From Aporhodopirellula sallentina SM41 (GTDB lineage: Bacteria > Planctomycetota > Planctomycetia > Pirellulales > Pirellulaceae): a stretch of DNA of 35,350 nt. Positions 6,973-31,243 of the stretch are shown here, one piece after another. The DNA is taken from NCBI RefSeq assembly GCF_000346505.1, contig NZ_ANOH01000047.1:1-35350 (forward strand), in the 5' to 3' direction. Within the stretch, counting starts at the first letter, position 1; each line of letters starts with the position of its first letter. The position numbers and the translations under genes are program-made. The notes under the pieces are model-generated. The model was not told the DNA's origin and did not search any database. It saw only the letters and a program-made list of their open reading frames with translations.

Positions 6973-7109
6973 GGATGGCGGGCCGTGTGGTGGGATGGCT
7001 GTATGGTGGGAGAGCCGTGAGGTAGGAGGCCTTGAGGCTCGGGAAGGTAGGAAGGCGTGGTGCGGACTACCGCACATCCTGTTCGGGATCACATCCTGTT
7101 CAGTATCGG

Positions 7110-8078
7110 TCAGCGATGGGCGACTTCCGACGTTTCGGATGAATACTTTGCTCGCAAGATGTCGAGACGTTCTGCGATCTCAGATTCGGTTCCGACGGTC
7201 AGCCAATATCGATATCGAAAGGTGCACGCGTGGCTTAATCTTACTCGGTCGATCGGTGCAACGTGCATGCAAGGGCCATCGTCGGGACGCTTCAATAGTT
7301 TGGCGCCGTGTGGGCCAAAGTTCCATGTTGATCCTGACGTCGGCGAGTAGATGGCTACTCCTTGGCCGGACGGAGCGAACATTGCCATCGCTTTGAGTGG
7401 TGGATTCGTTTTGCCCCATGGCGGGCCGGGCGGTTGGTGTTCGGATCTCCAATCGCCGTTGCCGAGATAGCTGCGGATGTCCGAAAAATTACGCGTGAAA
7501 TAACAGGCGGGGAGTTCTTGCGGATTGTTGGTAACGCCGCCCCAACGATCGCCTACCTTACGCATCGTTTGGAACTCGCATTGCACGCACACGACACCGG
7601 TCATGTTGGGTTGCAGCGTTGTCCACTGACGCATCAACGCGCTCGCTTCCTCGTTGGGCATGTCCCATAGTTTGGGGATGGTTTCGGAGTAGAGGCCATC
7701 GGCGTCTTTGCGAAATGTTGTCACCCGTGCCCAGCTACCTTGGTCGCCCGTGCTCCCGACTCCGCCACCTTGGATCGGGTTCCATGACCAGGGGCTCCAC
7801 GCTTGATTTTGCCCATCAGCTGTGCGGTCGATTGCTCGCCCGGCGTAATACGATTGCTGAATCAGTCGCCCGGGATCGGCGATGTTGACGATGTTTTTGG
7901 GATATTGGCTCGACGACAGCCAAGTGATCGCGCCTCCTTTTCGCCGATCGATCCCAACCTTCACTTTGTCGTCTTCGATCGTCAGCAGGTCGACGGGGGC
8001 CGGCTCGTTTGCAACCGTCATGCCGGCGCAAATGAATGCGAGGCACATGCCCAGTGCTGTGAATGTCAACGTTTTCAT
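7110..8078 (-). CDS. Secreted conserved protein of unknown function in sulfatase operon
   Basis: A protein of 322 residues with an N-terminal signal peptide (TFTALGMCLAFICAGMTVANE). The start is fixed by a four-base ATGA overlap with the stop of the upstream sulfatase gene, which indicates translational coupling. The sequence is beta-rich and Trp/Gly-rich, with LTIEDDKVKVGIDRRKGGAI followed by DPGRLIQQSYYAGRAID. This opening resembles beta-sandwich sugar-binding or mutarotase-like folds that start with a strand describing an asymmetric ligand, but the match is by eye only. I cannot assign a family or a reaction. The coupling with a sulfatase and a downstream DUF5722 protein suggests a periplasmic or extracellular role on the same glycan, as a lyase, a binding protein or an accessory glycosidase. 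Confidence 0.75.
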   Translation of the reverse strand: MKTLTFTALGMCLAFICAGMTVANEPAPVDLLTIEDDKVKVGIDRRKGGAITWLSSSQYPKNIVNIADPGRLIQQSYYAGRAIDRTADGQNQAWSPWSWNPIQGGGVGSTGDQGSWARVTTFRKDADGLYSETIPKLWDMPNEEASALMRQWTTLQPNMTGVVCVQCEFQTMRKVGDRWGGVTNNPQELPACYFTRNFSDIRSYLGNGDWRSEHQPPGPPWGKTNPPLKAMAMFAPSGQGVAIYSPTSGSTWNFGPHGAKLLKRPDDGPCMHVAPIDRVRLSHACTFRYRYWLTVGTESEIAERLDILRAKYSSETSEVAHR

Positions 8079-9706
8079 TTCGGTGCTATCTGCTTCTTAC
8101 GTGGTTGAGAGGCTTCGGACCATTTGACCACGATGATTTCATCACCGTTGCCCGTTCGACGGTTGTAGGACTCTTCAGGGTCATCCATCCGTCGATATCG
8201 TGGTTCGCCCGTGGATGGATTCCAACGCTTCTCCGGGACATCGGCGTACCAACTTTCCCAACGCTTTTGAAGACTCACGGCGAGTTCGGGACGTAGGCTG
8301 GCGAGATCGTTCTGTTCGGTACGGTCGGCGTTCATGTCGTACAACGCCCAAGGCGAGTCCCAGTTGCTAACCAATTTCATCCCGTCGGCAATGATCGCTC
8401 GATTGTGGAAGAGATGAAAGTACAACGCGTCGTGAGATGCACGCGGACTGCCGGTGAGCAACGGTCGAAGGCTCAATCCGGGAAGTTTCTCCGATGCTGT
8501 TTCGGAGATTGGTGTACCTGCCACGTCCGTGATCGTAGCCATTAGGTCAACGATGTGTGCTGGTTCATCGATCAGACGACCGCCGGTCGTTATCACCGAC
8601 GGCCATGACGCCACGCATGAGGTCAGAATGCCGCCGTTCCCCATCTCACACTTGTATCGTTGAAAGGGAGTGTTGCTGACGTTCGACCATCCGACGCCGA
8701 CCCAGTAACCATTTTTTCCCGCTCCGTTTTCGCCGAGTAATCCTTCGACCGTTTTGGGCGCGATGGAGGGATCCGACGCGCTGCCACCATTGTCGCTCAA
8801 AAAAATCACTAGCGTGTTGTCTTCTTCGCCGTGTTCTTTGACCCGGTCGAGGACGCGTCCAATGGCCTGGTCCATTCGATCCACCATTGCCGCGTAGATC
8901 GCCATTCGGGTTGATTCAAAATCCTTTTCTCGCTGGCTGAGCGTTTCCCATGCGGGAACGCTCGGGTCTCGAGGAGGCAATTTCCATTGTTCTTTGGTGA
9001 TCCCTATATCGATCTGTTTTTTGTGTCTCTGCTGACGAATGATGTCCCAACCGGCTCGATAGGTATCGCGGTACTTCGCAATGTCCTCGGGCAACGCATG
9101 CAACGGTGAATGGGGGGCGTTGAATGCGAGGTACATCATGAATGGCTTGTTCTCGTCTTCCTGCCGTAGTTCATCAATAAACTCGATCGCGTAGTCCGCG
9201 TTGGCGTCGGTCATGTAAAAGTCATCGCCGGGTGGTTGTCTGAAAACGTCATGGTTGAGTCGCTGGGAAGCGGCAACGCGAAAGTAGTGGCTGCCTCCGG
9301 CAAGATGTCCGAAATAACGATCGAATCCTCGGTCTACCGGATTCCCGTCAAGATGCCATTTCCCGACCGCGAACGTCGCGTAGTCTCTTTGTTTCATCGC
9401 TTCGCCCATGGTTTGACCGCGTTTGACGCCGAAGCCTGTATCTTGCCAGTATTGTCCGCTCATCAATGACGCACGCGTCGGTTCGCACTTGGATGAGTTG
9501 TAGAACTGAGTGAAACGAACGCCACCATGAGCGAGTCGATCGAGGTTGGGTGTCGCAATTTCGCTGCCGTAGCAACCGAGGTCGGAGTAGCCCATGTCGT
9601 CGGCCAAAATCAAAATGATGTTGGGATGCTGTTCCGCGTGAGCGTGGTTCACCGAGAACACCAGACTGATGATGGCGAAGGCAACGGCGATCGTTGGTGT
9701 GGGCAC
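8075..9706 (-). CDS. Secreted S1-family sulfatase (formylglycine type)
   Basis: A 543-residue arylsulfatase-type enzyme with a signal peptide (AVAFAIISLVFSVNHAHAEQ). The first metal motif is IILILADDMGYSDLGCYG. The maturation motif is CEPTRASLMSGQ, in which Cys74 would be converted to formylglycine by the sulfatase-modifying enzyme. A later metal/active-site strand reads LVIFLSDNGGSASD. The length is normal for S1 sulfatases. Such enzymes remove sulfate esters from glycans outside the cytoplasm. It is the first gene of a minus-strand operon with the coupled 322-residue protein and the DUF5722 protein. The upstream ECF sigma/FecR pair lies 413 bases away on the same strand and could control it. 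The exact S1 subfamily and sugar position cannot be read by eye. Confidence 0.93.
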   Translation of the reverse strand: MPTPTIAVAFAIISLVFSVNHAHAEQHPNIILILADDMGYSDLGCYGSEIATPNLDRLAHGGVRFTQFYNSSKCEPTRASLMSGQYWQDTGFGVKRGQTMGEAMKQRDYATFAVGKWHLDGNPVDRGFDRYFGHLAGGSHYFRVAASQRLNHDVFRQPPGDDFYMTDANADYAIEFIDELRQEDENKPFMMYLAFNAPHSPLHALPEDIAKYRDTYRAGWDIIRQQRHKKQIDIGITKEQWKLPPRDPSVPAWETLSQREKDFESTRMAIYAAMVDRMDQAIGRVLDRVKEHGEEDNTLVIFLSDNGGSASDPSIAPKTVEGLLGENGAGKNGYWVGVGWSNVSNTPFQRYKCEMGNGGILTSCVASWPSVITTGGRLIDEPAHIVDLMATITDVAGTPISETASEKLPGLSLRPLLTGSPRASHDALYFHLFHNRAIIADGMKLVSNWDSPWALYDMNADRTEQNDLASLRPELAVSLQKRWESWYADVPEKRWNPSTGEPRYRRMDDPEESYNRRTGNGDEIIVVKWSEASQPRKKQIAPK

Positions 9707-13245: not shown

Positions 13246-14454
13246 ATGAGTTTCTCGCGATCACGGCGGGCGTTCACGCTCGTTGAATTACTCGTTGTTA
13301 TTGCCATTATTGGTGTTTTGGTTGGGCTGTTATTGCCTGCGGTACAGGCGGCCCGAGAAGCAGCCCGGCGGATGAGTTGCAGCAATAATTTTAAGCAGAT
13401 CGGGCTTGCGATGCACAACTATCACTCTGCCTACGACCAGTTGCCGATGCAGTCGGGAGGGACCGCTGACTTCACGGGAACATCACAGGCGAACACAAAT
13501 GCTGCTGAGGTGCCGCGTACAAATAACTCGTTGGAGTTGAGTTTTCTTGTCGGGCTGACTCCCTTCTTCGAACAGCAGGCTCTTTGGGAGCAGATCAGCA
13601 ATCCTTTGGTCGATCCTGTGAGTGGAAACATTTTTCCACCAATGGGCCCCAATCCTCGCCGGACACTGACGGCAAATGGAGTGGCTCGCTACGAGCCATG
13701 GTTGACGAATATTCCATCGCTGCGTTGTCCCTCTGATCCGGGTGTGGGGATCCCGTCGCAGGGGCGAACTAACTACGCCGGTTGCATTGGTGATGCTGTT
13801 AAGGAAACGTCCAACGGGGCGAAAAACCAAAACGGTACCAGCAATGGCAAAGAAGCGGATGTTCAAGCGTCATGTCGTGGCGTTTTTGTTGCGCGAAAAC
13901 GCACGCGATTTCGTGATATCCTTGATGGGCTTTCTAACACCATCTGTGCCGGTGAAATCTTGACCGATTTGGGTGATAACGATGTTCGGACTCGCGGTGT
14001 GCGGCGAACGGCCGGAGCGTCGGTATGGAATGATGTGCAGAAGTGTGAGCGAGGCAGAGACGCAGAACGACCGCAGTTCTGGATGTCGACGCTCCCTGCT
14101 CAGATCGCGTTTTATGGGAACGCAGAACAGCGTCGTGGTTATCAGTGGGCCTTGGGGCGTCCTTATTTCACGGGTGTCTCCACGATTTCTCCACCGAATG
14201 ATGAAGTGTGTTTGCAAGTGAACCACATCAACGTCGGTAATTTTCCGCCGAGTAGCCGACACCAAGGGGGGGCGCATGTCCTGATGTCGGACGGAGCGGT
14301 GAAGTTCATCACCGATTCAATCGAAGCGGGGAATCAGGCGAGCAAAACGGTGCAACTCAGTGGCGGTCTGCCTCCGGGATCTGAAAGCCCGTATGGACTG
14401 TGGGGGGCTCTTGGGACACGAGCCTCGAAAGAAGTGATTGACGAAGAATTTTAA
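13246..14454 (+). CDS. DUF1559 protein with prepilin-type N-terminal cleavage/methylation motif
   Basis: A 402-residue protein beginning SRSRRAFTLVELLVVIAIIG, a type IV prepilin/pseudopilin signal with the conserved Phe and Glu5 followed by a long hydrophobic helix and then QAAREAARRMSCSNNFKQIG. The C-terminus carries the H-X9-DG signature of this planctomycete family: the His in SSRHQGG is followed nine residues later by DG in LMSDGAVKFI. These proteins are heavily expanded in planctomycetes and are thought to be anchored pseudopilins of uncertain role. The ribosome site is weak. A strong hairpin begins 38 bases after the stop. The gene lies between a lipoprotein and a sulfatase and may be part of surface machinery for polysaccharide handling, which is inferred from position only. 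Confidence 0.93.
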   Translation: MSFSRSRRAFTLVELLVVIAIIGVLVGLLLPAVQAAREAARRMSCSNNFKQIGLAMHNYHSAYDQLPMQSGGTADFTGTSQANTNAAEVPRTNNSLELSFLVGLTPFFEQQALWEQISNPLVDPVSGNIFPPMGPNPRRTLTANGVARYEPWLTNIPSLRCPSDPGVGIPSQGRTNYAGCIGDAVKETSNGAKNQNGTSNGKEADVQASCRGVFVARKRTRFRDILDGLSNTICAGEILTDLGDNDVRTRGVRRTAGASVWNDVQKCERGRDAERPQFWMSTLPAQIAFYGNAEQRRGYQWALGRPYFTGVSTISPPNDEVCLQVNHINVGNFPPSSRHQGGAHVLMSDGAVKFITDSIEAGNQASKTVQLSGGLPPGSESPYGLWGALGTRASKEVIDEEF

Positions 14455-14720: not shown

Positions 14721-14890
14721 ATGGTTCACATGAATGGATCCAATCTGGATAGCACTCTGAATTTGCGGCAGCAAAGGCAAGGCTCTCGGGAGGTGAATCC
14801 TCTGCGTGCCGCACCGCATCTCGATATGTCCATGGCTTCCGCTCGCACCTTCGATCCCGTTTTTAATCTCCCGCAGGAGTGATTCGCCGC

Positions 14891-16693
14891 ATGGCTCTAT
14901 CGCATTGTCCGAAACGTAGGCTAGTCTTGACAACTCGTATTCCAGTTCTGCTGCTCGTATTTGTATCTGCCTCGTTTTGCACGCCTTCGTTCAGCGGCGA
15001 AGATCACACGAGACCGAATGTAATTGTGATCCTCGCGGACGATCTCGGAATTGTCGACGTTAATGCGTACGCGACCAAGTTCACGGAAGCCAAACCGGCG
15101 GACATGTACTACGAGACGCCGAACCTGGATCGGTTGACCAAGGAAGGGCTCGCGTTTTCTCAAGCCTATGCCTGCCATCTCTGCTCACCGGCGCGAGCCA
15201 GCCTGTTGACGGGAAAGTATGCTGCGCGAACGGGGTTCACGACGGCCGTTGGTGGAAACGTTCGCACGTTCTACAACCAGGCGATTACGCCGCCGCAGGG
15301 CTACGTCGCTCAAGATGCACTCATTTGGCAAGACAGGATCCCAATCCAGCAGGCATTGCTCAACGGCACCACTCGCGATGCATTGGCGTCGGGCCAGCCT
15401 TCGGACAATGGACAGGACGAAACGACTCTTGCCGAAGCGATGGTAGATCACGATGCTGCCTTCATTGGCAAATGGCATCTAGGCGGTCATGGCTCGCAAG
15501 GTTGGCAGCCTGCGGATCAGGGGTTCGAAGAGATCTCTTACTTTGACGAAGGCGGTTCGCCCTATTTCAATTGGCGAGTGACGTGGGATAGCGGTCGAAA
15601 GCTGTATCCAAAAACGCCACAACCGAAGTTGCTGCGTGGCAAGTCCGGCGGAAACCTTGGGCAGGAATATCTCACCGATGAACTGACCGAGCATGCAGTG
15701 AATTTCTTGCAACGGCGAGCGAAATCTTTGGCGTCCGGCGGCAAGCCGTTCTTTCTGCACTTTTGTCACTTTGCCGTTCACACACCATTCCATGGACGTG
15801 CGGATGATGTGTCGCACTTTGAAAGCAAGCCGACACGTGGTTGGAATGGTCACGACAATCCTGTCTACGCGGCGATGTTGAAACGGTTGGATATTTCGGT
15901 TGGTCGAATTCTCGACACGCTCGAGGCAACCGGGCTCGATGAAAACACATTAGTCATTTTTATGAGTGACAACGGCGGAGTGACATACACCGATCCCGTC
16001 GCGACCAACAACTCGCCGTTCAAGGGTGGGAAGGCATTGCACTTTGAAGGCGGCATCCGTGTACCGTTGGTGGTCCGATGGAAGAACCATGTGGACGGCG
16101 GTCGGTGGAGTGATGTGCCTGTGGACTGCAACGATATCTTCCCCACGGTTTTGGATTTGGCCGGCTACGATGTTTTCGAGCATACCAATCCCGGCGGGAT
16201 CGACGGGCGAAGTATGGCTCCGCTGTTTGACGACCCGGGCAATCGCACGCACCAATACCCTCGCGACACATTTTTCTGGCACTACCCACTCAACGTGATT
16301 GTTCAAAATCCCGAAGATGGCTTGCCATCGGCTCCTTCATCCGCGGTTCGGAAAGGGGATTGGAAGTTGATTTTTGATTGGTCGGGAGTCCTGAGGCTAT
16401 ATAACATCGCCGAGGATCCTTATGAAAAGAACGAATTGTCTGCCGCGATGCCGGAGAAGGCTCGTGCATTGTTCATCGTTCTGAACGACTGGATCGATGC
16501 AAACGTCGACGTCAAATACACGCCTGCGATCAATCCCAACTACGATCCGTCAAAAGAGTCTCGCGATCGACCGTTCGTCGACCTGCGCCGCAAATATTTG
16601 GGGGACACGCGAGCGATCCGTACCACCAAAGAGGATCCGAGGTTTGCGTTGATTTCTGACAGAATGAAACCTCACGTCAACAGATCCAATTAG
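14891..16693 (+). CDS. Secreted S1-family sulfatase (formylglycine type)
   Basis: A 600-residue sulfatase from ATG 14891, chosen over the in-frame GTG at 14879 because AGGAG (14875-14879) is correctly spaced only for the ATG. A signal peptide is present (IPVLLLVFVSASFCTPSFSG). It has the metal motif NVIVILADDLGIVDVNAYA, the classic maturation site CSPARASLLTGK with Cys98 as the future formylglycine, a substrate/metal Lys-His strand (FIGKWHLGGHG) and LVIFMSDNGGVTY. It differs from the first sulfatase in an insertion between the Cys motif and GKWHLGG, so the two probably act on different sulfate esters. It precedes a GH78 rhamnosidase on the same strand, which fits desulfation of a rhamnose-bearing glycan before or after chain cleavage. 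Confidence 0.94.
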   Translation: MALSHCPKRRLVLTTRIPVLLLVFVSASFCTPSFSGEDHTRPNVIVILADDLGIVDVNAYATKFTEAKPADMYYETPNLDRLTKEGLAFSQAYACHLCSPARASLLTGKYAARTGFTTAVGGNVRTFYNQAITPPQGYVAQDALIWQDRIPIQQALLNGTTRDALASGQPSDNGQDETTLAEAMVDHDAAFIGKWHLGGHGSQGWQPADQGFEEISYFDEGGSPYFNWRVTWDSGRKLYPKTPQPKLLRGKSGGNLGQEYLTDELTEHAVNFLQRRAKSLASGGKPFFLHFCHFAVHTPFHGRADDVSHFESKPTRGWNGHDNPVYAAMLKRLDISVGRILDTLEATGLDENTLVIFMSDNGGVTYTDPVATNNSPFKGGKALHFEGGIRVPLVVRWKNHVDGGRWSDVPVDCNDIFPTVLDLAGYDVFEHTNPGGIDGRSMAPLFDDPGNRTHQYPRDTFFWHYPLNVIVQNPEDGLPSAPSSAVRKGDWKLIFDWSGVLRLYNIAEDPYEKNELSAAMPEKARALFIVLNDWIDANVDVKYTPAINPNYDPSKESRDRPFVDLRRKYLGDTRAIRTTKEDPRFALISDRMKPHVNRSN

Positions 16694-20338: not shown

Positions 20339-20929
20339 ATGCGTATGCTTATCCTTCGTCTAACGATGGTGCTTCTTTGTCAGGCAGTGGTTTTCAGAAG
20401 CCACCATGCGTCTGGTGCCGCTCAAAATCCGTCGGGAGATTTGATTTCAACGGAGGAAACAATGAGCCCTGAAAATTCTCTTGATTCGGCAGGTTCTGCA
20501 CCGCCGAGTAGCTCCGTTCCCGGCCCAGCGGTCGCCGAGATCGTGTTGGCCCAGTCCCGTTTCGAAAACGTCCGCGAAGGCTATCAGGCATTGCAGTGGA
20601 ACGAGATCGAGGGGGCATCGCGTTATCAGGTCCTCGATGCGGATGGGTATTCGTACTACGACGGCACATTGACGGAAGCCTTCATCTCCGGGTTGCCTGA
20701 TGGGGAACACACATTCGAAATTCAGGCGTTTTCGGCTGACAATGTATTGGTCGGTGTGACCGATCAACCCGCCGTGATTGAAGTTCACCATTGGCCGATG
20801 TCGCAGGCGTGGGCTTCGTTTGCAGTCGGATTGGTTGTCTTTCTCGCGATGATTGGATTGATCATTGTGGGCGCCACACGTTCATCGACTCCATCACAAG
20901 ATGCCAGCGGATCGGGGGCGGACTCGTGA
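20339..20929 (+). CDS. Single-pass membrane protein with FN3-like domain, upstream of symporter
   Basis: A 196-residue protein. The N-terminus from ATG 20339 is a possible signal peptide (LRLTMVLLCQAVVFRSHHAS). A Ser/Pro-rich linker follows. Residues about 75-150 look like a fibronectin III-like beta sandwich (ALQWNEIEGASRYQVLDADG, then ISGLPDGEHTFEIQAF). A C-terminal membrane helix (WASFAVGLVVFLAMIGLIIV) is followed by a short polar tail. If the signal is real, the FN3 domain lies outside the cytoplasm. A second in-frame ATG at 20462 has a much better ribosome site (GGAGG, 20452-20456) but would delete the signal. The stop overlaps the GTG of the symporter gene (GTGA), so the two are probably translated together. 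It could be an accessory or sensor subunit of the transporter. Confidence 0.7.
   Translation: MRMLILRLTMVLLCQAVVFRSHHASGAAQNPSGDLISTEETMSPENSLDSAGSAPPSSSVPGPAVAEIVLAQSRFENVREGYQALQWNEIEGASRYQVLDADGYSYYDGTLTEAFISGLPDGEHTFEIQAFSADNVLVGVTDQPAVIEVHHWPMSQAWASFAVGLVVFLAMIGLIIVGATRSSTPSQDASGSGADS
20452..20464 (+). promoter_or_regulatory. Strong internal ribosome site and alternative ATG in the FN3-protein gene
   Basis: GGAGG at 20452-20456 is five bases before an in-frame ATG at 20462. It is a far better match than anything before the ATG at 20339. It would give a shorter protein without the signal peptide, starting at the Ser/Pro-rich linker. Either the annotated start is wrong or two forms are made. 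Confidence 0.4.
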
Positions 20930-22407
20930 TCACGAATTTGGATTGTCCGGCGGTTGTGGCAACTGCGGTGTTGTCGCCCATGGCCGGCTATGTGATGCTC
21001 GCGTGTTTCAGCGTTCTGTGGGTTTCGCTCGGGATATGGTGGGGCCGACGGGCGACTTCCTATGACGGATTTGCCGTCGCGGGACGCAACGTCGGGTTGG
21101 CGCTCGGGACGGCGACCGCAGTCGCCACATGGATTACCTCCAACACGACCATGTTGGCGCCGCAGTTTGCGTTGCAGTTGGGCGTTTGGGGAGCGGTTGC
21201 CTACTCGACGGCGAGTTTTGGTTTGTTCGCGTTTGCTCCCATGAGCGGTCGCATTCGCCAACTCATGCCCAAAGGCTACACGGCGGTCGAGTTTGTTCGT
21301 CGTCGTTACGGCAGTATGGGCTCGATACCATTTCTGCTGATTTCAATTTTCTATGCGATCACATGGTTGATCTCGATGTCGATGGCGGGTGGGAAACTGC
21401 TCGAAGTTCTGTCCGGGATTCCGTATCCGGTCGGAATGACCGTGGTTGTGGTGGTATGTGTGACGTACACGCTATTCGGCGGGATGTACGCGGTGATCGG
21501 GACGGACTTCATCCAAAGCCTGATCATCCTGATCGGGTTGGTTGTCGTTGCGATCGCGGTATTGATGCAAATCGATATCGCCGATGTGCATTCGAAATTG
21601 GAAACGAACCGCCCGATGCTGTTGTCGGTGTTCTTTCCCGCGGCATTGATGGCGTTGTTTAACAATATGTTGTTTGGGTTCGGTGAAATCTTTCACAGCA
21701 ACGTGTGGTGGAGCCGTGCGTTCGCGATGCGAGAAGGCGTCGGGCCGAAGGCATACGCCCTCGGCGGTGTGCTCTGGCTGCCGGTTCCGATTGTGGCTGG
21801 ATTCTTGGGACTGGCCGCCCCGGCGCTGGGGATTGGGATCAGCCATCCGGACACGGTTGGGCCTTTGGTGGCGGCGACGTTGCTGGGGACCGGTGGTGCG
21901 TTGTTGGTCTTTGTCGTGGTGTTTTGTTCTCTCGCGTCGAGCATCGACAGCCTCCTGGCCGCGACCGCGGATTTGATCGTTAACGACATGGTCGAGCCGA
22001 TCGCGAAAGCCAAGCGTGCAGGCATCAAACCGGACGGTCACGCGATGTCGGATTCCGCGAAACGTCGTGCATCGAGTTTTGCAATCATCTTCCTGGGTGT
22101 GCTCTCCTGGGCGGTCGCCCTTCCTAACGTGGGCACGTTGGCGACGGTGCTGTTTTTCGCCGGGCCGATGGTGGGCAGTTGTATTTGGCCGATCGTGGGC
22201 GGACTGTATTTCCGTCGTCCGAGCCCGTTGGCGGCCGGTGCGGCGATGACGATCGGAACGGCTACGGGTCTGTGGGCTTACTTCGCGATCGGTTGGTTTG
22301 TTGCCTCACTCGTTGGTGCCGCGGTGTCGGGCGTGGTTTTTGCTCTGGCGACTTGGCTTGCGCCGGCCCAGTTCGACTTTTCGACTCTTGCTGACGAGGC
22401 GGCGTGA
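20926..22407 (+). CDS. Sodium/solute symporter (SSS family)
   Basis: A 493-residue, about 13-helix transporter from GTG 20926, whose GTGA overlaps the stop of the FN3-like gene. The open frame extends upstream to 20791, but that stretch overlaps the previous gene. Features of SSS proteins are visible: GRRATSYDGFAVAGRNVGLA after the first helix, TAVATWITSNTTMLAPQFAL with helix-breaking residues, YTAVEFVRRRYGS, and LASSIDSLLAATADLIVNDM near the Na+-binding helix equivalent to TM8. Substrates of the family include amino acids, nucleobases, urea, sugars and organic acids, and the substrate cannot be read here. The genes that follow act on amino and N-carbamoyl groups, so a nitrogenous solute is likely by inference. 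Confidence 0.9.
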   Translation: MITNLDCPAVVATAVLSPMAGYVMLACFSVLWVSLGIWWGRRATSYDGFAVAGRNVGLALGTATAVATWITSNTTMLAPQFALQLGVWGAVAYSTASFGLFAFAPMSGRIRQLMPKGYTAVEFVRRRYGSMGSIPFLLISIFYAITWLISMSMAGGKLLEVLSGIPYPVGMTVVVVVCVTYTLFGGMYAVIGTDFIQSLIILIGLVVVAIAVLMQIDIADVHSKLETNRPMLLSVFFPAALMALFNNMLFGFGEIFHSNVWWSRAFAMREGVGPKAYALGGVLWLPVPIVAGFLGLAAPALGIGISHPDTVGPLVAATLLGTGGALLVFVVVFCSLASSIDSLLAATADLIVNDMVEPIAKAKRAGIKPDGHAMSDSAKRRASSFAIIFLGVLSWAVALPNVGTLATVLFFAGPMVGSCIWPIVGGLYFRRPSPLAAGAAMTIGTATGLWAYFAIGWFVASLVGAAVSGVVFALATWLAPAQFDFSTLADEAA

Positions 22408-22532
22408 GCAACATGTTTCCACTTTGGTTTCTTCAAGTTCTGGTGATTGGTGCGTTGGCGTTAACCTGCGTCGGCGTGGCGGCTCTGATCACGTTCCTTA
22501 TTATCGACTCTCGAGACCGACAAATCTGGTGA
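22404..22532 (+). CDS. 42-residue single-pass membrane microprotein between symporter and carbamoyltransferase
   Basis: A short frame from GTG 22404, overlapping the symporter stop as GTGA, to TGA 22530-22532, which overlaps the GTG of the next gene, again as GTGA. The product is one hydrophobic helix of about 25 residues (LQVLVIGALALTCVGVAALI) with a short N-terminus (SNMFPLWF) and a charged C-terminal tail (IDSRDRQIW). An ATG at 22413 is an alternative start. Several SSS transporters depend on small membrane partners encoded next to them, for example the DUF485, DUF997 and DUF3311 proteins beside ActP-, PanF- and MctP-type permeases. This protein is shorter and I do not recognise it as any of those. 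A symporter small subunit is the best guess. The exact overlaps on both sides argue strongly that it is a real gene. Confidence 0.7.
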   Translation: MSNMFPLWFLQVLVIGALALTCVGVAALITFLIIDSRDRQIW

Positions 22533-23629
22533 GTAGTACCGAAATGAATATGTTCAATCACGCCTCGTCACCGCTGACGAACGCCGCGAGTAATTCGAAG
22601 GGACAACGCCTGTCCCCTTTGCGACTGCTCGATCACTACGATCACCAGATCGATTGTGAGGCGTTGAAGGGGTTGGCGGGCCAGTCGATCCTGAACCCAC
22701 GTCAATTCAACCGCCGCCAAGTCATCGCTCTTGCACAGTTGGCGGCGTTGCTGGAAACGCGTAACGTCGAGATGGAAAAACCTCTCGATGGAAAAATCGC
22801 GATCACCGCATTCTTTGAAGCCAGTACCCGAACTCGGTTGTCGTTTGAGAGCGCGGTGTTGCGTCTCGACGGGAAAGTCCTTTCGGTGCCGGACGGGCAA
22901 GTGACGGGCATCGCAAAAGGCGAATCGCTCGCTGACATCGGTGAAATGTTCAATACCTACGGTGACGTCGTGATCATGCGGCATCCCGATACCGATTGTC
23001 TCGACGAGATCAGCAAAAACCTGCAGCGTCCGTTGATCAACGCGGGCAACGGTTCGGGGCACCACCCGACGCAGGCCTTGATCGATTGGTACGCTTTGTT
23101 GAAGTGGCGGCCGGAACTGTGTGACCCGAATTGTCCGGAGTCCAAACGTGTTCACCTCGGAATCATCGGGACACCGGGATCGATGCGTGCGGTGAAAAGC
23201 TTCGTGCGGCTCGCGCTGATGTTTGCCGGCGCGGTGAAGAAAATCACGCTGATTTCGGAATTGGCCGATCCGGTTGGGTTGGACCTAACCGAGCCGATCG
23301 AGGAGTCGCCGATCGAGATTGAGATCATCAACGATGTTCAGGAGGTCCTGCCGGAACTCGATGTGGTGTACGTCAACTCGATCGCGTTTTTGGGTGACAG
23401 CTATCGCAAACTCGACGCCCGTTACAAGTTGGACGAAACGAGTAACCTCAAATCCGACGCGGTGATTTTGCACCCGCTGGCGCGAAATGATGAGTTGAGC
23501 GAAAGTCTCGATCAAACGGCACACAATTTGTACTTTGCCCAGGCGGCGGGAGCGGTCTTCGTCCGGCAAGCGTTGCTCACCGCCGTTCTCGACAGGCTCG
23601 ACCGTATCTCGGGGATCAACGACGTTTGA
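22529..23629 (+). CDS. Aspartate carbamoyltransferase-like enzyme with altered second-substrate site
   Basis: 366 residues from GTG 22529 (GTGA overlap with the microprotein gene), or 361 from ATG 22544. The carbamoyl-phosphate half resembles PyrB: STRTR at 99-103, Lys130 in AKGESL, Arg151 in MRHP, His179 and Gln182 in HHPTQAL. The C-terminal end also matches (NLYFAQAAGAVFVRQALL, compared with PyrB YFQQAGNGIFARQALL). The loop that in E. coli PyrB carries Arg229-x-Gln231 for aspartate is YVNSIAFLGDS here, with neither residue, and the HPLPR loop is HPLAR (315-319). The enzyme probably transfers a carbamoyl group to an amine other than aspartate. An N-terminal extension of about 45 residues is unusual. 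It is placed among genes for amidotransferase and N-carbamoyl hydrolases rather than pyrimidine genes, so the symbol pyrB is not used. Confidence 0.85.
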   Translation: MSSTEMNMFNHASSPLTNAASNSKGQRLSPLRLLDHYDHQIDCEALKGLAGQSILNPRQFNRRQVIALAQLAALLETRNVEMEKPLDGKIAITAFFEASTRTRLSFESAVLRLDGKVLSVPDGQVTGIAKGESLADIGEMFNTYGDVVIMRHPDTDCLDEISKNLQRPLINAGNGSGHHPTQALIDWYALLKWRPELCDPNCPESKRVHLGIIGTPGSMRAVKSFVRLALMFAGAVKKITLISELADPVGLDLTEPIEESPIEIEIINDVQEVLPELDVVYVNSIAFLGDSYRKLDARYKLDETSNLKSDAVILHPLARNDELSESLDQTAHNLYFAQAAGAVFVRQALLTAVLDRLDRISGINDV

Positions 23630-23713
23630 CTTTCGTCGTTTCCGTCTCGCACGTTTCGTCGCTGAACGAACTCCGAGTTCCATCTCTCTCAACTCACAAA
23701 ATTTGTTTTTGTT

Positions 23714-25633
23714 ATGTGTGGTATCACCGGTTTTTGGAACCCGTCGCGCACCAACGAACGGGATCTGCGGTTCGCTCTCGACCCGATGTTGGACGTCCTC
23801 GATCACCGGGGGCCTGATGAACGAGGCAGCCGATTCTTTCGTGAACTTGGCGTCGCCTTGGGGCACACCCGGTTATCGATCATCGGTCTGGATTGTGGAC
23901 ACCAGCCGATTGAGACCGATGATGGCGACTATGCGGTCACGGTGAACGGTGAGCTGTACGGATATAAAAAGATCCGCACGGAACTCGCGTGTCAGAGATA
24001 CACCTGCAACGGCAAGAGCGACAGTGCGGTCACGTTGCCGTTGTATCTCAAACATGGTCTTGCGTTTGTCGAGAAGCTGCGTGGTGAGTTTGCAGTCGTC
24101 TTGTTCGATCAACGTGAACAACGCCTGATCCTGATCCGCGATCGTTTCGGGGTGAAGCCGCTTTACTATCACGTCGGCGACTCCGGTTTGGTGTGGGGGT
24201 CGGAGGTCAAATCGATCCTCAAGCACCCAGACGTCACTCCGCGGCTGTGTCCGAAAGCGGCCGTGCACCAGATGATGCAGGTCATGGTCCCTGGCTCGAC
24301 GTCATTCGAAGGCGTCGAGGCACTCAAGCCCGGGCACATGCTGATCGCGAACCTGCGTGGCGATCGGCTCGAGGTGGAAACCAAACGTTGGTGGGATTTC
24401 GAATTCCCGGATTCGCACGAAGAGGGCGTCGACCCGACCGAGTATGTCCAAGGGGTTCAGGAACGATTGATCGATGCGGTGGCCACACGGTTGGAGGCTG
24501 ACGTGCCGGTGGGTTGCTACTTGTCCGGCGGTATCGACAGTTGTTCGATTCTCGGTCTGGCGACGAACCTGCAGCAGTCGCCGATCAAGGCGTTCACGAT
24601 CGCGTTCGATAGCGACGAATACGACGAGTCGAACATTGCTCGCCGAATGGCCGAGAGCACCGGTGCGGAGCAGGAGTTGCTGCGGTTGACCGAGAAAGAA
24701 CTCTACGGTCCCGCGTTCGAGCGAGCGACATGGCACGCCGAGCGGACTTTCTACAACACGCTCGCCGTTGCCAAATGGCACATGAGTCGCCGAGTCCGGG
24801 CGTGCAACTACAAAGCCGTCATCACCGGTGAAGGATCCGACGAGTTGTTCGGCGGATACCCGTTCTTTCAACGGGATTGGTTGGGACGCGACAGCGAAGG
24901 AGGGATCTTTGCCGGTGCGATCCTGGCCGAGGAAGATCAAACTCATAACGCATGGCAGGACCTCTGTGGTTTCACGCCGTCCTGGATTCAACCGTGGATG
25001 ATGGTTCTCGAACGAGTCAAACCGTTGTTCAGCTCGTCGGTGCAGGACCTCCTGGCTGACTACGATCCGGTCGCGGAGGTCGCCGGTGCGATCGATCCGA
25101 ACATGGTCCGCGGACGCCATCGTCTGGACATCTCGCAGTACACGTGGAGCAAGACGATGCTCGAGGGGCAGATCCTCACGTGGGGTGGCGATCGAATGGA
25201 CATGGCCAACTCGATGGAAGCCCGACCGGCGTTCCTGGATCACCACGTTGCCGAGTACGCGACCACGATCCCGCCGGACGTCCGTATCCGCGACGGTGTG
25301 GAAAAATGGGTGTTGCGAGAAGCGATGGTGAACGTGCTGCCGCGTGAACTCTACGAACGTAAAAAGTTTGCTTTCATGGCACCTCCGGCGCACACCGATC
25401 CGGTGAAAAAGGCGGCGGTGCAGGAAATGATCAACCACTGGTTGACCCCCGAACGTGTTGCCGCAGTCGGCTTATTCGACTACGGTCGGCTCTCCCAATT
25501 CCTGACCGATTCGTGGAACGAAACCGATGGCACGCTTGCACGTCGCAACGACATCGTGATGAACCACGCGCTGCAACTGCATATGCTGCACGGTCAATAT
25601 GTCGAAGGACTTCCGCTGCCGGCGGTTGACTGA
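23714..25633 (+). CDS. AsnB-type glutamine-dependent amidotransferase (asparagine synthetase family)
   Basis: A 639-residue protein. The start is fixed by MCGITGF, in which Cys2 becomes the N-terminal nucleophile of the class II glutaminase. The glutaminase domain (about 1-190) shows DHRGPDERG, GHTRLSIIGL, TVNGELYGY and RDRFGVKPLYY. The synthetase domain has the ATP pyrophosphatase loop GCYLSGGIDSCSILG and TGEGSDELFGGYPFF. Members make asparagine, or amidate other carboxylates in pathways for lactams and for N-acetylglutaminylglutamine amide. Both half-sites look intact. The gene lies 84 bases after the carbamoyltransferase gene and 2 bases before an M20 hydrolase gene. It may therefore amidate a dedicated intermediate rather than make bulk asparagine. 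No ribosome site is evident. Confidence 0.9.
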   Translation: MCGITGFWNPSRTNERDLRFALDPMLDVLDHRGPDERGSRFFRELGVALGHTRLSIIGLDCGHQPIETDDGDYAVTVNGELYGYKKIRTELACQRYTCNGKSDSAVTLPLYLKHGLAFVEKLRGEFAVVLFDQREQRLILIRDRFGVKPLYYHVGDSGLVWGSEVKSILKHPDVTPRLCPKAAVHQMMQVMVPGSTSFEGVEALKPGHMLIANLRGDRLEVETKRWWDFEFPDSHEEGVDPTEYVQGVQERLIDAVATRLEADVPVGCYLSGGIDSCSILGLATNLQQSPIKAFTIAFDSDEYDESNIARRMAESTGAEQELLRLTEKELYGPAFERATWHAERTFYNTLAVAKWHMSRRVRACNYKAVITGEGSDELFGGYPFFQRDWLGRDSEGGIFAGAILAEEDQTHNAWQDLCGFTPSWIQPWMMVLERVKPLFSSSVQDLLADYDPVAEVAGAIDPNMVRGRHRLDISQYTWSKTMLEGQILTWGGDRMDMANSMEARPAFLDHHVAEYATTIPPDVRIRDGVEKWVLREAMVNVLPRELYERKKFAFMAPPAHTDPVKKAAVQEMINHWLTPERVAAVGLFDYGRLSQFLTDSWNETDGTLARRNDIVMNHALQLHMLHGQYVEGLPLPAVD

Positions 25634-25635
25634 TC

Positions 25636-26874
25636 ATGCCATCACTGCAAGTCGACTTGCAACGAATCAAATCGGATATTCTCTCGCTCGCGGAGATCGG
25701 TCGAGACCCGGTTGACCACGGCATCTACCGAATGGCGTTCACGGACGCCGATATGGAAGGAAAGCGTTGGTTGACGGACCAAATTGACGCTGCCGGATTG
25801 CCTCATTGGACCGATGGTGCGGCGAACATCTCGTCCAAGGTCGAAGGTGCCAGCGATGCACCGGAGATTTTGATCGGCTCGCACATTGACACGGTTCCCT
25901 GCGCCGGGGCTCTCGACGGGACGCTCGGCGTGATCGTGGGGCTCGAGTGCCTGCGTTGTCTCCGGGAGGCGAAGGTATCGCTCGAGCGGACGATCGAATT
26001 GGTTGCTTTCAGCGATGAGGAGGGACGTTTCGGGGGAATGTTCGGGTCGCAATCGGTCTGTGGAGAGATCAATCCTGAAAAGCTCGCCACGATGACGGAC
26101 ATGAACGGAGTCCGGCTCGAAGACGAGCTTGTCCGTCACGGCCTCGATCCGATGGGGGCTCTCGACGCGGCTCGGAACCCGGAAACGATCGAAGGCTATT
26201 TAGAGCTGCACATCGAGCAAGGGCCGGTTCTCGATCGGATCGGTAAACCGGTTGGCATTGTCGACGAAATCACTGGCCTTTTCACGTGGTCGGTGCGATT
26301 CAAGGGTGAGGCGAATCATGCCGGTACCACCCCCATGAATATGCGGAACGATGCGTTCATGGGGCTCGCCGATTTTGCTCACGAGATCCCACGGATTTTG
26401 GATGAAAACGGCAGCGACCGGAGCCGGGCGACCATCGGCAAGGCACAAATCCTGCCCGGTGCCACGAACACCGTTCCGGGGTTGGTCGAGTTTTCTTTGG
26501 ACGTTCGTGATACCTCCGATGAAGTCCTCGACGAACTCGCCACGGCGTTTCGAAAAGCGTTATCGGCGATCGCCCGTCGCAGGCATCTGATGTTTGAATT
26601 CGAACAGAAGAGTTACATCGCACCGGTGAAGTGCAGCAAAAAGATGATTAACGCATTGACCAATCAGAGCTCCTTGCTCGGACTTGATTCGAATACAATG
26701 CCTAGCGGAGCCGCTCACGATGCCCAGATCATGGGACGGATGGTTCCCGTTGGAATGATTTTCGTCCCCAGCAAAGGGGGCCAGAGCCATTCGCCGTCCG
26801 AATGGACCGCGTGGGCGGACATCGAGGCGGGGGCCAACGTGATGCTCAACACCCTTGTTCAACTTGCTAGTTAA
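25636..26874 (+). CDS. M20-family Zn-dependent N-carbamoyl-amino-acid/allantoate amidohydrolase
   Basis: A 412-residue enzyme of the HyuC/AmaB/AllC type. Metal ligands are visible: His83 in GSHIDTVP, Asp94 in GALDGTLG, Glu128/Glu129 in FSDEEGRFGG, the His of ELHIEQGPVLD, and a C-terminal His in PSGAAHDAQIMG. The LHIEQGPVL line separates this group from ordinary M20 peptidases. The family hydrolyses N-carbamoyl amino acids, beta-ureidopropionate, allantoate or ureidoglycolate, releasing CO2 and ammonia. The start is two bases after the asnB-type stop, so the two are co-transcribed. Its presence beside a carbamoyltransferase suggests that the operon both makes and breaks N-carbamoyl groups, or that the carbamoyltransferase works in the catabolic direction. 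Substrate is not determinable from sequence alone. Confidence 0.9.
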   Translation: MPSLQVDLQRIKSDILSLAEIGRDPVDHGIYRMAFTDADMEGKRWLTDQIDAAGLPHWTDGAANISSKVEGASDAPEILIGSHIDTVPCAGALDGTLGVIVGLECLRCLREAKVSLERTIELVAFSDEEGRFGGMFGSQSVCGEINPEKLATMTDMNGVRLEDELVRHGLDPMGALDAARNPETIEGYLELHIEQGPVLDRIGKPVGIVDEITGLFTWSVRFKGEANHAGTTPMNMRNDAFMGLADFAHEIPRILDENGSDRSRATIGKAQILPGATNTVPGLVEFSLDVRDTSDEVLDELATAFRKALSAIARRRHLMFEFEQKSYIAPVKCSKKMINALTNQSSLLGLDSNTMPSGAAHDAQIMGRMVPVGMIFVPSKGGQSHSPSEWTAWADIEAGANVMLNTLVQLAS

Positions 26875-26877
26875 TCA

Positions 26878-27618
26878 ATGATCGACGATATCGACCCTTC
26901 CAATCCCCACGTTGATCCACTCCGTGATGTTTATCACGAATCGTTTATCGACAACCCCAAGCACATGGAGTTCCTCACCGGGAGGAACACGGCGTTGTTG
27001 TGCATTGATCTGCAGTATCTCGACGCGGCTCCCGGGTGCGGCGTCTTTGCCGATTCCGAAGCCAGCGGGGTTCCGCCCGAAGCGCAGGAGTACTATTTCG
27101 ACCGCCTCGAAAAAATCGTTCTTCCGGGAGTGCGTAAGCTGCAAGACGCGTTTCGGCAGCACGGTCTCGAGGTCATCCATACCCGCATTCAGTCACTGAC
27201 CCAGAACGGTCGTGATCGAGGAATGGGGCACAAACGTCTCAATCTACTCGCACCCCCGGGCTCGCGCGAGGCCGAGTTTATCGATCAAGTCGCACCGGCG
27301 CCCGCCTACGATGAGATTGTGATTAACAAGACCGCGAGCGGCGTGTTCTCGTCCACCAATCTGCACTACGTGCTGAAGAATCTGGGCATCGAGTCGTTGT
27401 TTGTTGTCGGTGTCTACACCAACGAGTGCGTCGAAACCACGATCCGTGACGCCTGCGACCTGGGCTACCTCGTCACGATGGTCGAAGATTGTTGTGCGAC
27501 GGTGACACCGGAATTGCACGAAGCCTCACTATCAACGCTGCGTGATCGCTACGCCCGGGTGCTCACCCTCAATGAGACACTCGGTGATGTTGATACCAAA
27601 GTTCCGATGCTCGACTGA
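26878..27618 (+). CDS. Isochorismatase-fold cysteine hydrolase
   Basis: A 246-residue protein with the Asp-Lys-Cys triad of the cysteine hydrolase group: Asp44 in LLCIDLQ, Lys151 in VINKTASGVF and Cys184 in YTNECVETT. Known members with this triad include N-carbamoylsarcosine amidase, biuret hydrolase, ureidoacrylate hydrolase (RutB), nicotinamidase and isochorismatase. An N-terminal extension of about 30 residues precedes the first strand. The gene starts three bases after the stop of the M20 hydrolase gene and is the last of the operon. The family and its neighbour both attack carbamoyl or amide bonds, so a ureido-type or primary amide substrate is likely by inference. There is no signal peptide, so it acts in the cytoplasm. 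Confidence 0.88.
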   Translation: MIDDIDPSNPHVDPLRDVYHESFIDNPKHMEFLTGRNTALLCIDLQYLDAAPGCGVFADSEASGVPPEAQEYYFDRLEKIVLPGVRKLQDAFRQHGLEVIHTRIQSLTQNGRDRGMGHKRLNLLAPPGSREAEFIDQVAPAPAYDEIVINKTASGVFSSTNLHYVLKNLGIESLFVVGVYTNECVETTIRDACDLGYLVTMVEDCCATVTPELHEASLSTLRDRYARVLTLNETLGDVDTKVPMLD

Positions 27619-29412: not shown

Positions 29413-31185
29413 TCACACCGGCATTTGCTTGTGCCGACTGATGTCGCGTAGGCCTTCGATTCCGGTTGGTGGTTCGGGACGCCATGGGATCAACGCCATG
29501 CGATTGGCGTGCTCGGTTTGGACTTCTTCGATGAAGCCACGCTCGTATTGTTGGCGACTGCGTAGCGTTCGGTCGGTAACGTCCAACGGCGTGAGGCTTT
29601 GATTGATCACCCATCCAAACGGTTCGATCTCTGCCCGTCGCAGATCGTCTTGCAACCCGGCCGCCTCGTGAACGGGAGTTGCCTCGGGGAGGGTGACAAC
29701 GAGCACGCGGGTGAATTGTGGATCGCGTAGTCGTGGCAACAAGTTGGCAACTTCTTCCGAGATCTCGTTCGTTTGCCGAGACACTTCGCGGTGATAGGCC
29801 AACGCCGAATCGAGAAGCAAAATCGTGTGACCGGTCGGTGCGGTGTCCAGCACCACGAATCGGTCCGAACCTTCCGCAACGGCTTTGGCGAATGCCCGAA
29901 AGACCGCGATCTCTTCGGTGCACGGCGAGCGAAGATCCTCTTCGAGTAGTGCCCGGCCTTCGGTATCCAAGTCGTCTCCGGCGGTGGCGAGGACCTCGGC
30001 GGTGTACTTGGCGGTTTCCTCCGCGGGATCGATGCGTCCGACAGTCAGGCTCGGCAACTCGCCCGCAGCGAGCGTCGCGGCGAGATGCGCGGCCGGGTCC
30101 GTTGTCGACAAGTGCACCTCAAAACCACGATCGGCCAAGGCGACTGCGACCGCGGAGGCGACAGTGGTTTTGCCGACGCCGCCCTTGCCCATCGCCAAAA
30201 CGACGCCGTGGCCTACCGAGGCGAGGTCGTCGATCAGAGTTTCAAACTCATCGGCGGCAATCGCGGGCAGTTGCGGATCGGGATCGGCGGAGAGGTCTTC
30301 GGCGGGCGGCTCGCCGACTCGTCGCAACGAATCGACGCCCATCAAACCTCTCGCCGACAACGGCACGGTGGTTTGCGGGAGTGCACCGATTGTTGCCGGC
30401 ATGGTTTGCAGGGCTTGGTCGCCGCGTTTCTGCATCGCAACGGCGATCGGATCGGAACGGTCTTCGCTGTGAAAGACACCGTTGACGATTAAGTGTTGGT
30501 GGGTGACTCCGATCGCTTTGAGTTCTTCGCTGGTGCGGCTGGCTTCCTGAAACGCCGAAGGTTCCGGACGTGTCACGAGAACCAACGTTGTTGTGTCCGC
30601 GTCGCATAGTGCGTTGACGGTTTGTTTGTAGATTTGTTGCTGAGCCTGCAATCCCGCGAGTGGTCCCAAGCACGATGTTCCCGAGGTGTTGGTTTCAATG
30701 AAACCGGACCACGCCGAGGGCAATGTTAATAGCCGGAGGGTGTGCCCGGTCGGGGCGGTGTCAAAGACCACGTGGTCGTAGTTCTGTGTGGCCTGTTGGT
30801 CACCGAGTAGGCGGGCGAACTCATCGAAGGCTGCGATTTCGAGCGTGCACGATCCAGAGAACTGCTCTTCCATGCTGGCGACCGCCGTGTCGGGGAGCAC
30901 ACCGCGATAGGGGCCAACCATTCTTTCCCGGTATTCCTTCGCGGCGGTTTCCGGATCGATGTTCATTGCATCGAGGTTAGGCACCGAGTCCAACGGTGTG
31001 GGGACGCTGCCGAGTTGGGTGCCAAGTACTTCATCGAGATTCGATGCCGGGTCGGTCGAAACCAACAGCACGCGATGACCACGGTCGGCCAACTGCACCG
31101 CGGTCGCGCAGGCCATCGACGTTTTTCCCACGCCTCCCTTGCCGGTAAAGAAAAGATTTCGAGTCGGTTGTTGTAGGAATTGCAT
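29413..31185 (-). CDS. arsA: ArsA arsenite-transporting ATPase, two-domain
   Basis: 590 residues from ATG 31185, the start with a GAGA-type site. It is the classical duplicated form. P-loop 1 is FFTGKGGVGKTSMACATAVQ, with LLVSTDPASNLDEVLG. P-loop 2 is VLAMGKGGVGKTTVASAVAV, with LSTTDPAAHLAATL. Each half carries the DTAPTGHT signature (VVFDTAPTGHTLRLLTLP and VVLDTAPTGHTILLLDSA). Cysteines for metalloid binding are seen in SGSCTLEIAAFDEF and RSPCTEEIAVFRAF. ArsA couples ATP hydrolysis to As(III)/Sb(III) export through a membrane partner (ArsB, or Acr3 in some bacteria) and takes metalloid from ArsD. It follows arsD by 58 bases. No pump gene is found in the window. Confidence 0.96.
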   Translation of the reverse strand: MQFLQQPTRNLFFTGKGGVGKTSMACATAVQLADRGHRVLLVSTDPASNLDEVLGTQLGSVPTPLDSVPNLDAMNIDPETAAKEYRERMVGPYRGVLPDTAVASMEEQFSGSCTLEIAAFDEFARLLGDQQATQNYDHVVFDTAPTGHTLRLLTLPSAWSGFIETNTSGTSCLGPLAGLQAQQQIYKQTVNALCDADTTTLVLVTRPEPSAFQEASRTSEELKAIGVTHQHLIVNGVFHSEDRSDPIAVAMQKRGDQALQTMPATIGALPQTTVPLSARGLMGVDSLRRVGEPPAEDLSADPDPQLPAIAADEFETLIDDLASVGHGVVLAMGKGGVGKTTVASAVAVALADRGFEVHLSTTDPAAHLAATLAAGELPSLTVGRIDPAEETAKYTAEVLATAGDDLDTEGRALLEEDLRSPCTEEIAVFRAFAKAVAEGSDRFVVLDTAPTGHTILLLDSALAYHREVSRQTNEISEEVANLLPRLRDPQFTRVLVVTLPEATPVHEAAGLQDDLRRAEIEPFGWVINQSLTPLDVTDRTLRSRQQYERGFIEEVQTEHANRMALIPWRPEPPTGIEGLRDISRHKQMPV

Positions 31186-31243
31186 CGGTACTTTCTCGTG
31201 CGTAGGCGAAACCAAAAAGGTCAGACGGATCGGTGAGCGAGGC

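Follow-up and report, generated by a model that had tools for sequence, protein, structure and literature searches.

A carbamoyltransferase–amidotransferase gene cassette kept in four bacterial phyla: candidate genes for synthesis of a carbamoylated amino-acid amide osmolyte

The closest described counterparts of the genes analysed here are clusters for compatible solutes. According to the accessible parts of the papers cited here and below, the operon for N-acetylglutaminylglutamine amide (NAGGN; asnO-ngg / PA3459-PA3461) places an AsnB-type enzyme under a divergent MarR regulator (PMC8070244), and the SSS-family importer EctI sits inside ectoine (ect) gene clusters (PMC13342039). A third solute, N-carbamoylglutamine amide (CGA), accumulates in Ectothiorhodospira marismortui (PMC1224877), where it is a minor component beside glycine betaine and which is the one organism it is known from (PMC3857566); it is also mentioned, without genes, in PMC7824335. 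Here we describe a seven-gene cassette in the marine planctomycete Aporhodopirellula sallentina SM41, located in a stretch of 35,350 nucleotides (contig NZ_ANOH01000047.1, positions 1 to 35,350 of the forward strand) that we refer to as the window. We consider the chances somewhat better than even that this cassette makes, re-imports and dismantles a small neutral salt-stress protectant consisting of an amino acid, probably glutamine, with carbamoyl and amide caps. We infer that osmolyte synthesis is the best-supported function and CGA the best-supported product. Neither a description of the cassette nor biosynthesis genes for CGA were found in the open-licence PMC literature, a search in which papers held elsewhere would be missed.

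The cassette comprises seven genes on the + strand (20339-27618) that are joined by two four-base overlaps and by gaps of 11, 84, 2 and 3 bases. Each of the seven frames is open and ends in a single terminal stop. A preliminary description of this DNA had reported seven same-strand genes with four-base overlaps and gaps of 2-84 bases, and all of its coordinates, frames and spacing were confirmed. The families that it had named are backed by Pfam and NCBIfam for five of the seven genes; the first gene, which it had left unnamed, and the microprotein match no Pfam or NCBIfam family above cut-off. The genes are as follows:

20339..20929, + strand: FN3-type protein with a signal-like helix (2-21), a beta sandwich (66-149) and a C-terminal transmembrane (TM) helix (154-182)
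20926..22407, + strand: SSS-family symporter; GTG start, four-base overlap with the FN3-type gene; PF00474, 59.6 bits
22404..22532, + strand: single-TM microprotein of 42 residues ending in D-x6-W; GTG start, four-base overlap with the symporter gene
22544..23629, + strand: carbamoyltransferase (CT); gap of 11 bases; PF02729 and PF00185 above cut-off
23714..25633, + strand: AsnB-type glutamine amidotransferase; gap of 84 bases; PF00733, 305.6 bits, and PF13537, 129.3 bits
25636..26874, + strand: M20 N-carbamoyl-amino-acid hydrolase; gap of 2 bases; NF006771, 533.6 against a cut-off of 399
26878..27618, + strand: isochorismatase-fold cysteine hydrolase; gap of 3 bases; PF00857, 129.9 bits

The NAGGN operon is comparable in that an AsnB-type enzyme masks the carboxylate of a glutamine-derived solute and a second enzyme masks its amine; it also has a linked peptidase gene and a MarR repressor gene in divergent orientation (PMC8070244). 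In contrast, the amine-capping enzyme of the cassette would be a carbamoyltransferase, a symporter and a microprotein are fixed components, and the amidotransferase scores far below the NAGGN cut-off (TIGR03104, 268.7 against 570.1). No cluster present in at least five of 80 cassette neighbourhoods was named as an acetyltransferase or ligase that could stand for the NAGGN enzyme Ngg, although no search by name was made. Ectoine clusters with EctR and EctI likewise group a MarR regulator and an SSS symporter alongside biosynthetic genes (PMC13342039), and glycine-betaine clusters with a BCCT transporter adjoin the cassette in six loci. The enzymes and predicted product of the cassette differ from those of both cluster types, however, and its symporter is nearest to DUR3 among solved structures. 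CGA is the compound that CT and the AsnB-type enzyme would form from glutamine (PMC1224877, PMC7824335, PMC3857566).

The gene order was analysed in a near-kin set of 60 genomes, own genome included. CT with at least 79% identity occurs in 15 of them: the own genome, 11 of the 12 other genus members (G001 being the exception) and the genomes G018, G023 and G025. In the 14 holders among the 59 other relatives, CT identity ranges from 79 to 88%. All 14 carry the genes for the FN3-type protein, symporter, microprotein, CT and AsnB-type enzyme in the same order, which extends to the M20 gene in 13 and to the hydrolase gene in 12; locus L041 has neither within the 16 kb taken, and L046 is without the hydrolase. 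Because the order is kept in 14 close relatives, the arrangement is not due to chance. To look further afield, contigs were scanned with two query peptides, an approach that favours near kin, and 80 of 99 relatives were kept (34 Verrucomicrobiota, 21 Planctomycetota, 19 Bacteroidota, five Myxococcota and one without a phylum). The symporter gene lies upstream of CT on the same strand in 80/80 loci and the AsnB-type gene downstream of it in 78; the two remaining contigs stop 82 and 199 bases past CT. The symporter–microprotein–CT–AsnB core is kept in four phyla. The preliminary description had asked for this check and had named lack of conservation as grounds for abandoning the operon; the order holds both among close relatives and across the four phyla.

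For some counts we used 95 loci, namely the 80 scan loci, 14 further loci and the window, whose origins overlap so that they do not represent 95 independent genomes; on short contigs, absences are partly missing sequence. Occurrence is patchy: in samples for which the best five to seven candidates per genome were scored, CT was present in 6/297 genomes of the class (own included), and holders made up 5/288 genomes of the phylum of L097 and 1/395 of that of L093, sample centres and known holders included. With the centre and known holders again included, 5/29 sampled genomes from the order of L128's genome carry the cassette. In a plasmid collection, the best CT match has 36% identity among the matches listed (30 of 100 records) and the best AsnB match 39% (25 of 96 records), none reaching 60% in either case. 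Clusters found in at least five of the 80 neighbourhoods comprise the cassette genes, a MarR regulator, betaine and BCCT genes, sulfatases and an unnamed 76-residue frame, the rest being frames antisense to cassette genes. Sulfatases are commonly numerous in such genomes.

Several other matches were set aside. CT relatives of 28-32% identity in L048-L050 have no other operon gene nearby, the AsnB matches H31, H40 and H53 lie in other genomic settings and are uninformative, and an M20 relative on a Nitratireductor plasmid also has a different setting. A few loci show irregularities. The AsnB-type gene of L061 (R. baltica BR-MGV) was matched in two frames near 10690 and so is frameshifted in the assembly. 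The symporter appears in two overlapping pieces and frames in L036 and is only partly listed in L058 (Neorhodopirellula pilleata), and is broken or misassembled there; in L127 (a Polyangia metagenome-assembled genome, MAG; 5540-7103), about 1.5 kb separates the two halves of its match. In L089 and L132 (Bacteroidota), the CT and AsnB-type genes are set apart by roughly 3 kb of additional DNA, which contains a weak M20 match (24-26%).

CT adopts the fold of aspartate transcarbamylase (ATCase; TMt 0.85 and 31% identity to the E. coli enzyme). It scores closest to the PyrB models yet stays under their cut-offs (TIGR00670, 174.1 against 236.95; NF002032, 170.7 against 263), and it is below every NCBIfam cut-off listed. 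The YgeW, putrescine, ornithine and N-acetylornithine carbamoyltransferases were considered as identities and rejected, their models being far under cut-off; for the ygeW cluster, the YgeW model TIGR03316 gives 23.8 bits against 500. Next, the residues of 27 CTs were mapped on E. coli PyrB. The STRT motif, Lys84, Arg105, His134, Gln137 and Arg167 are retained in 27/27. All of these except Arg167 we take to be the carbamoyl-phosphate-binding residues of PyrB, and Arg229 and Gln231 to be its aspartate-binding pair. Without exception, Arg229 is replaced by serine (26) or alanine (1) and Gln231 by alanine (26) or valine (1). CT is therefore alike to PyrB in fold and carbamoyl-phosphate residues but carries small residues at 229 and 231. 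In a quick tree with long branches, the CTs form a single, separate group with full SH-like approximate likelihood-ratio test (SH-aLRT) support, which E. coli PyrB adjoins with weak support.

The own genome contains three transcarbamylases, as do 12 of 12 named genomes searched. Paralogs were readable in 15 of 22 loci (the seven that were not read properly are not counted): 11 keep Arg229 and Gln231 and four carry D-x-W-x-SMG, the signatures of PyrB or ArgF. The preliminary description had noted that its interpretation would fall if CT were the only PyrB; with three transcarbamylases per genome and these signatures in the paralogs, that is not so. Judged by sequence, CT is a third transcarbamylase and not PyrB, because the aspartate pair is lost in 27/27. 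Since Arg167 is kept while Arg229 and Gln231 are lost, its substrate would be an amino acid whose alpha-carboxylate is still held and whose side chain is not acidic. We propose that CT is an amino-acid, putatively glutamine, N-carbamoyltransferase.

The AsnB-type protein passes the cut-off of the general asparagine synthase model (TIGR01536, 397.7 against 267.1). Cys2 is kept in 73/77 loci, and the positions of the synthetase motif are conserved wherever a match covers them (74-75 matches). The four exceptions (L082, L114, L134 and L135; Sphingobacterium or kin) start with MS instead of MC; the glutaminase nucleophile is therefore lost, and ammonia may be the direct source. Three of these loci, L114, L134 and L135, have room on both sides and show no M20 or hydrolase match. 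We propose that the AsnB-type enzyme amidates the alpha-carboxylate.

The closest solved relative of the symporter is the urea symporter DUR3 (83.7 bits, against 28.4 for the next kind). DUR3 is also closest for the symporters of L093 and L097, and thus for all three cassettes tried, from three phyla, a result drawn from the small choice that the few solved SSS structures offer; a control SSS protein (L108:11635-12876) is closest to SGLT1. A DUR3-like symporter fits a ureido-bearing substrate, and it may accordingly import the ureido product. A frame for a hydrophobic microprotein of 39-55 residues lies between the symporter and CT genes in 80/80 loci, with an aspartate at position -8 and a terminal tryptophan in every case. 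As a control, the opposite strand of these intervals was read; it has a hydrophobic frame in 8/80, and none of these ends in tryptophan. The microprotein is probably a symporter subunit. The AlphaFold2 (AF2) model of the FN3-type protein has a predicted local distance difference test (pLDDT) score of 82.2, with sandwich blocks of at least 90, and its top PDB matches are FN3-like modules (3pe9, E 6.3e-5, 15-16% identity). A frame of 100-400 residues with a hydrophobic tail abuts the symporter start in 69 of the 72 loci with enough upstream DNA, and the blastp cluster of the FN3-type protein takes in 52 loci. From its modelled architecture and position, it is possibly a symporter accessory.

The two hydrolases behave differently from the core. 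Counted at thresholds of 200 bits for M20 and 50 bits for the hydrolase, both were found in 41/80 loci. They follow the core in its own orientation in 26 of these, follow it inverted in four and precede it on the opposite strand in 11. One of the two is present in 5/80 and none in 34/80, of which 13 have room on both sides; three of these 13 (L089, L103 and L132) contain a weaker M20 match (24-31%). M20 and the isochorismatase-fold hydrolase travel as a pair that is separable from the core. Because making and unmaking are separable, synthesis with optional breakdown fits better than a degradative pathway.

The M20 protein exceeds the NF006771 and TIGR01879 cut-offs, and its closest PDB chain is an N-carbamoyl-L-amino acid hydrolase (3n5f, 276 bits). 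The positions that we take to bind metal and substrate are kept in 44-45 matches, the sole exception being N278 in one locus. The PDB neighbours of the isochorismatase-fold enzyme, all below 65 bits, are a cysteine hydrolase, a putative amidase, biuret hydrolase, N-carbamoylsarcosine amidohydrolase and RutB; its Asp-Lys-Cys triad is intact in 40-41 matches. With respect to the Rut pathway, the RutB model gives 57 bits against a cut-off of 377.95 and marks a related hydrolase only, and the allantoin and ureide pathways are related to the M20 protein through the allantoate/hydantoinase M20 models. We propose that the M20 enzyme strips the carbamoyl group and the isochorismatase-fold enzyme the amide. 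Since M20 should need a free carboxylate, the amide would be removed first.

A link to salt stress is suggested by the neighbouring regulators. MarR proteins of one group occur in 20/95 loci from four phyla, 0.5-5.1 kb from the symporter gene (19 measured). EctR1 and CosR are described as salt-responsive repressors of compatible-solute genes (PMC7876524). Ten plasmid records with relatives of the cassette MarRs were opened, seven annotated and three unannotated. In 7/7 annotated records, ect genes lie within 4 kb of the MarR relative, next door in six; in the Vibrio nigripulchritudo record, proVWX stands between the two. Among the unannotated records, that of Aeromonas caviae has a BCCT transporter one frame off and that of Gemmatirosa a TreS-like enzyme below cut-off. 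Bacteroidota and Verrucomicrobiota cassette MarR queries reach many of the same plasmid records; a control MarR from L063 retrieves others (among the matches listed, 12 of 34). Within the Pirellulaceae, group MarRs are found beside a glycine/sarcosine methyltransferase (L152 and L153), a sucrose-phosphate synthase domain (L159), a glgC-like gene (L157) and an ectA-like stretch (L161).

Genes for glycine betaine provide a second link. Glycine/sarcosine and sarcosine/dimethylglycine methyltransferase genes and a BCCT gene precede the FN3 gene on the same strand in L063, L066, L067, L068 and L069. The former methyltransferase is above cut-off in the three loci scanned and has tblastn matches in all five; the latter scores 366-396 bits against a cut-off of 550. 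In L075 (a Phycisphaerales MAG), betaine methyltransferases and BCCT are divergent and upstream of the cassette, and in L134 and L135 a BCCT gene alone lies downstream. In total, betaine synthesis and BCCT neighbours occur in 6/95 loci and BCCT alone in 2/95.

These features can be combined into a scheme. With carbamoyl phosphate as donor, CT would carbamoylate the alpha-amine of an amino acid whose side chain is not acidic, preferably glutamine. With glutamine and ATP, the AsnB-type enzyme would then convert the alpha-carboxylate to an amide, so that both charges would be masked, as in NAGGN; the predicted product is an N-carbamoyl amino-acid amide. Leaked solute would be recaptured by the DUR3-like symporter and the microprotein, perhaps together with the FN3 protein. 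When the solute is unwanted, the isochorismatase-fold enzyme would remove the amide and M20 the carbamoyl group, which would give back the amino acid along with CO2 and ammonia. A nearby EctR-type MarR would couple the cassette to salinity in some lineages; in others the cassette would form the continuation of a glycine-betaine operon. The gene content, its conservation and modularity, the residue changes, the relationship of the regulator and the betaine neighbours are observed. The substrates, the order of steps and the osmotic role are what we infer from the genes, as is continued use of the cassette for this purpose in Rhodopirellula.

A number of observations weigh against this scheme. 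The cassette also occurs in genera that are not marine, such as Sphingobacterium and Chitinophaga. The relative at L039, whose genome we take to be likely the R. baltica type strain, carries the whole cassette. Nuclear magnetic resonance (NMR) analysis of R. baltica under varied salinity, nitrogen and temperature identified glutamate, sucrose, mannosylglucosylglycerate (MGG) and trehalose as the main solutes, and the accessible part of that report contains no CGA (PMC3694870). It follows that Rhodopirellula either makes little CGA or uses it in circumstances other than those surveyed, unless the product is a different compound or does not act as an osmolyte. The available text of an R. baltica salt transcriptome study names none of the cassette enzymes (PMC2754498). 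As for the regulators, the genome of the window contains no group MarR at E <= 1e-15, and only 2/12 other genus members have one. At L154, L155, L156 and L160, the neighbours of the group MarR include no gene recognised as serving osmolyte metabolism, and the MarR relative of Vibrio sp. THAF190c adjoins an ABC pair and a GGDEF/EAL protein instead. A profile of seven ect-linked MarRs gives 89-169 bits for 15 cassette MarRs and 52 for the control, a score that is not independent because the seven were found via cassette MarRs. Of the six betaine-linked loci, five belong to close relatives of one another, and within the window there is no match to a betaine or ect gene.

The same chemistry could serve a different end, with the capped amino acid kept as a nitrogen store or released as a shared good and later hydrolysed for ammonia. 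The linkage of two ammonia-releasing hydrolases in 41/80 loci, the lack of an EctR-type MarR in the genome of the window and the report of R. baltica without such a solute under salt (PMC3694870) would all agree with this. However, the kinship of the MarRs with ect-linked regulators and the betaine neighbours point to salt, and strong hydrolase matches are missing in the 13 loci with room, which leads us to regard a nitrogen store as unlikely. We hold it distinctly unlikely that CT and the AsnB-type enzyme cap another amine, whether to make a signal or specialised metabolite or to render a toxic amino acid harmless. Such a role would suit the patchy occurrence in the two phylum samples and the putative nature of the assigned substrate, but the recurrent neighbourhood clusters listed above offer nothing for it beyond the cassette, its salt-linked neighbours, sulfatases and the small or antisense frames.

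The preliminary description had put forward two readings, carbamoylation of an amine and amidation of a carboxylate with later reversal, by analogy with NAGGN, or catabolism of an imported ureide; the evidence favours the former and disfavours the latter. An external ureido compound might be imported and broken down, with CT and the AsnB-type enzyme reusing its nitrogen or running in reverse, and both the DUR3-like symporter and the resemblance of the M20 and isochorismatase-fold enzymes to ureide hydrolases are in keeping with this. It is the hydrolases, however, that are dispensable and CT and the AsnB-type enzyme that are constant: symporter, CT and amidotransferase are all present in the 13 loci (of 80) in which neither M20 nor hydrolase was matched at the thresholds used despite room on both sides. 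An ATP-using amidotransferase would also misfit a degradative route, and no cluster in at least five loci was named as a carbamate kinase, in a survey that included no search by that name. We regard catabolism as very improbable. Least credible of all, and close to negligible, is a housekeeping role, with CT as a redundant PyrB and the AsnB-type enzyme as a redundant asparagine synthetase encoded next to a transporter. The AsnB-type protein does clear the cut-off for asparagine synthases in general, and the PyrB models are the nearest to CT, but the loss of the aspartate pair in 27/27, the separate tree group, the order kept over four phyla and the three transcarbamylases in 12/12 genomes searched speak against it; plain PyrB and spare AsnB were ruled out on residues, tree and copy number.

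Elsewhere in the window, inspection by eye revealed a 600-residue frame on the - strand (29413-31215) that resembles a tandem ArsA-type ATPase with two GKGGVGKT motifs, and two sulfatase-like proteins with a DUF1559-type protein between them (8075-9706, 13246-14454 and 14879-16693).

If the assignment of the cassette to osmolyte synthesis is true, two purified enzymes would suffice to test how CGA is made, and transcarbamylases acquire an osmotic role. A microprotein of about 40 residues, kept in 80/80 loci, would be offered as a symporter subunit. The product would then be a candidate solute by which marine Verrucomicrobiota, Bacteroidota and Planctomycetota adapt to salt.

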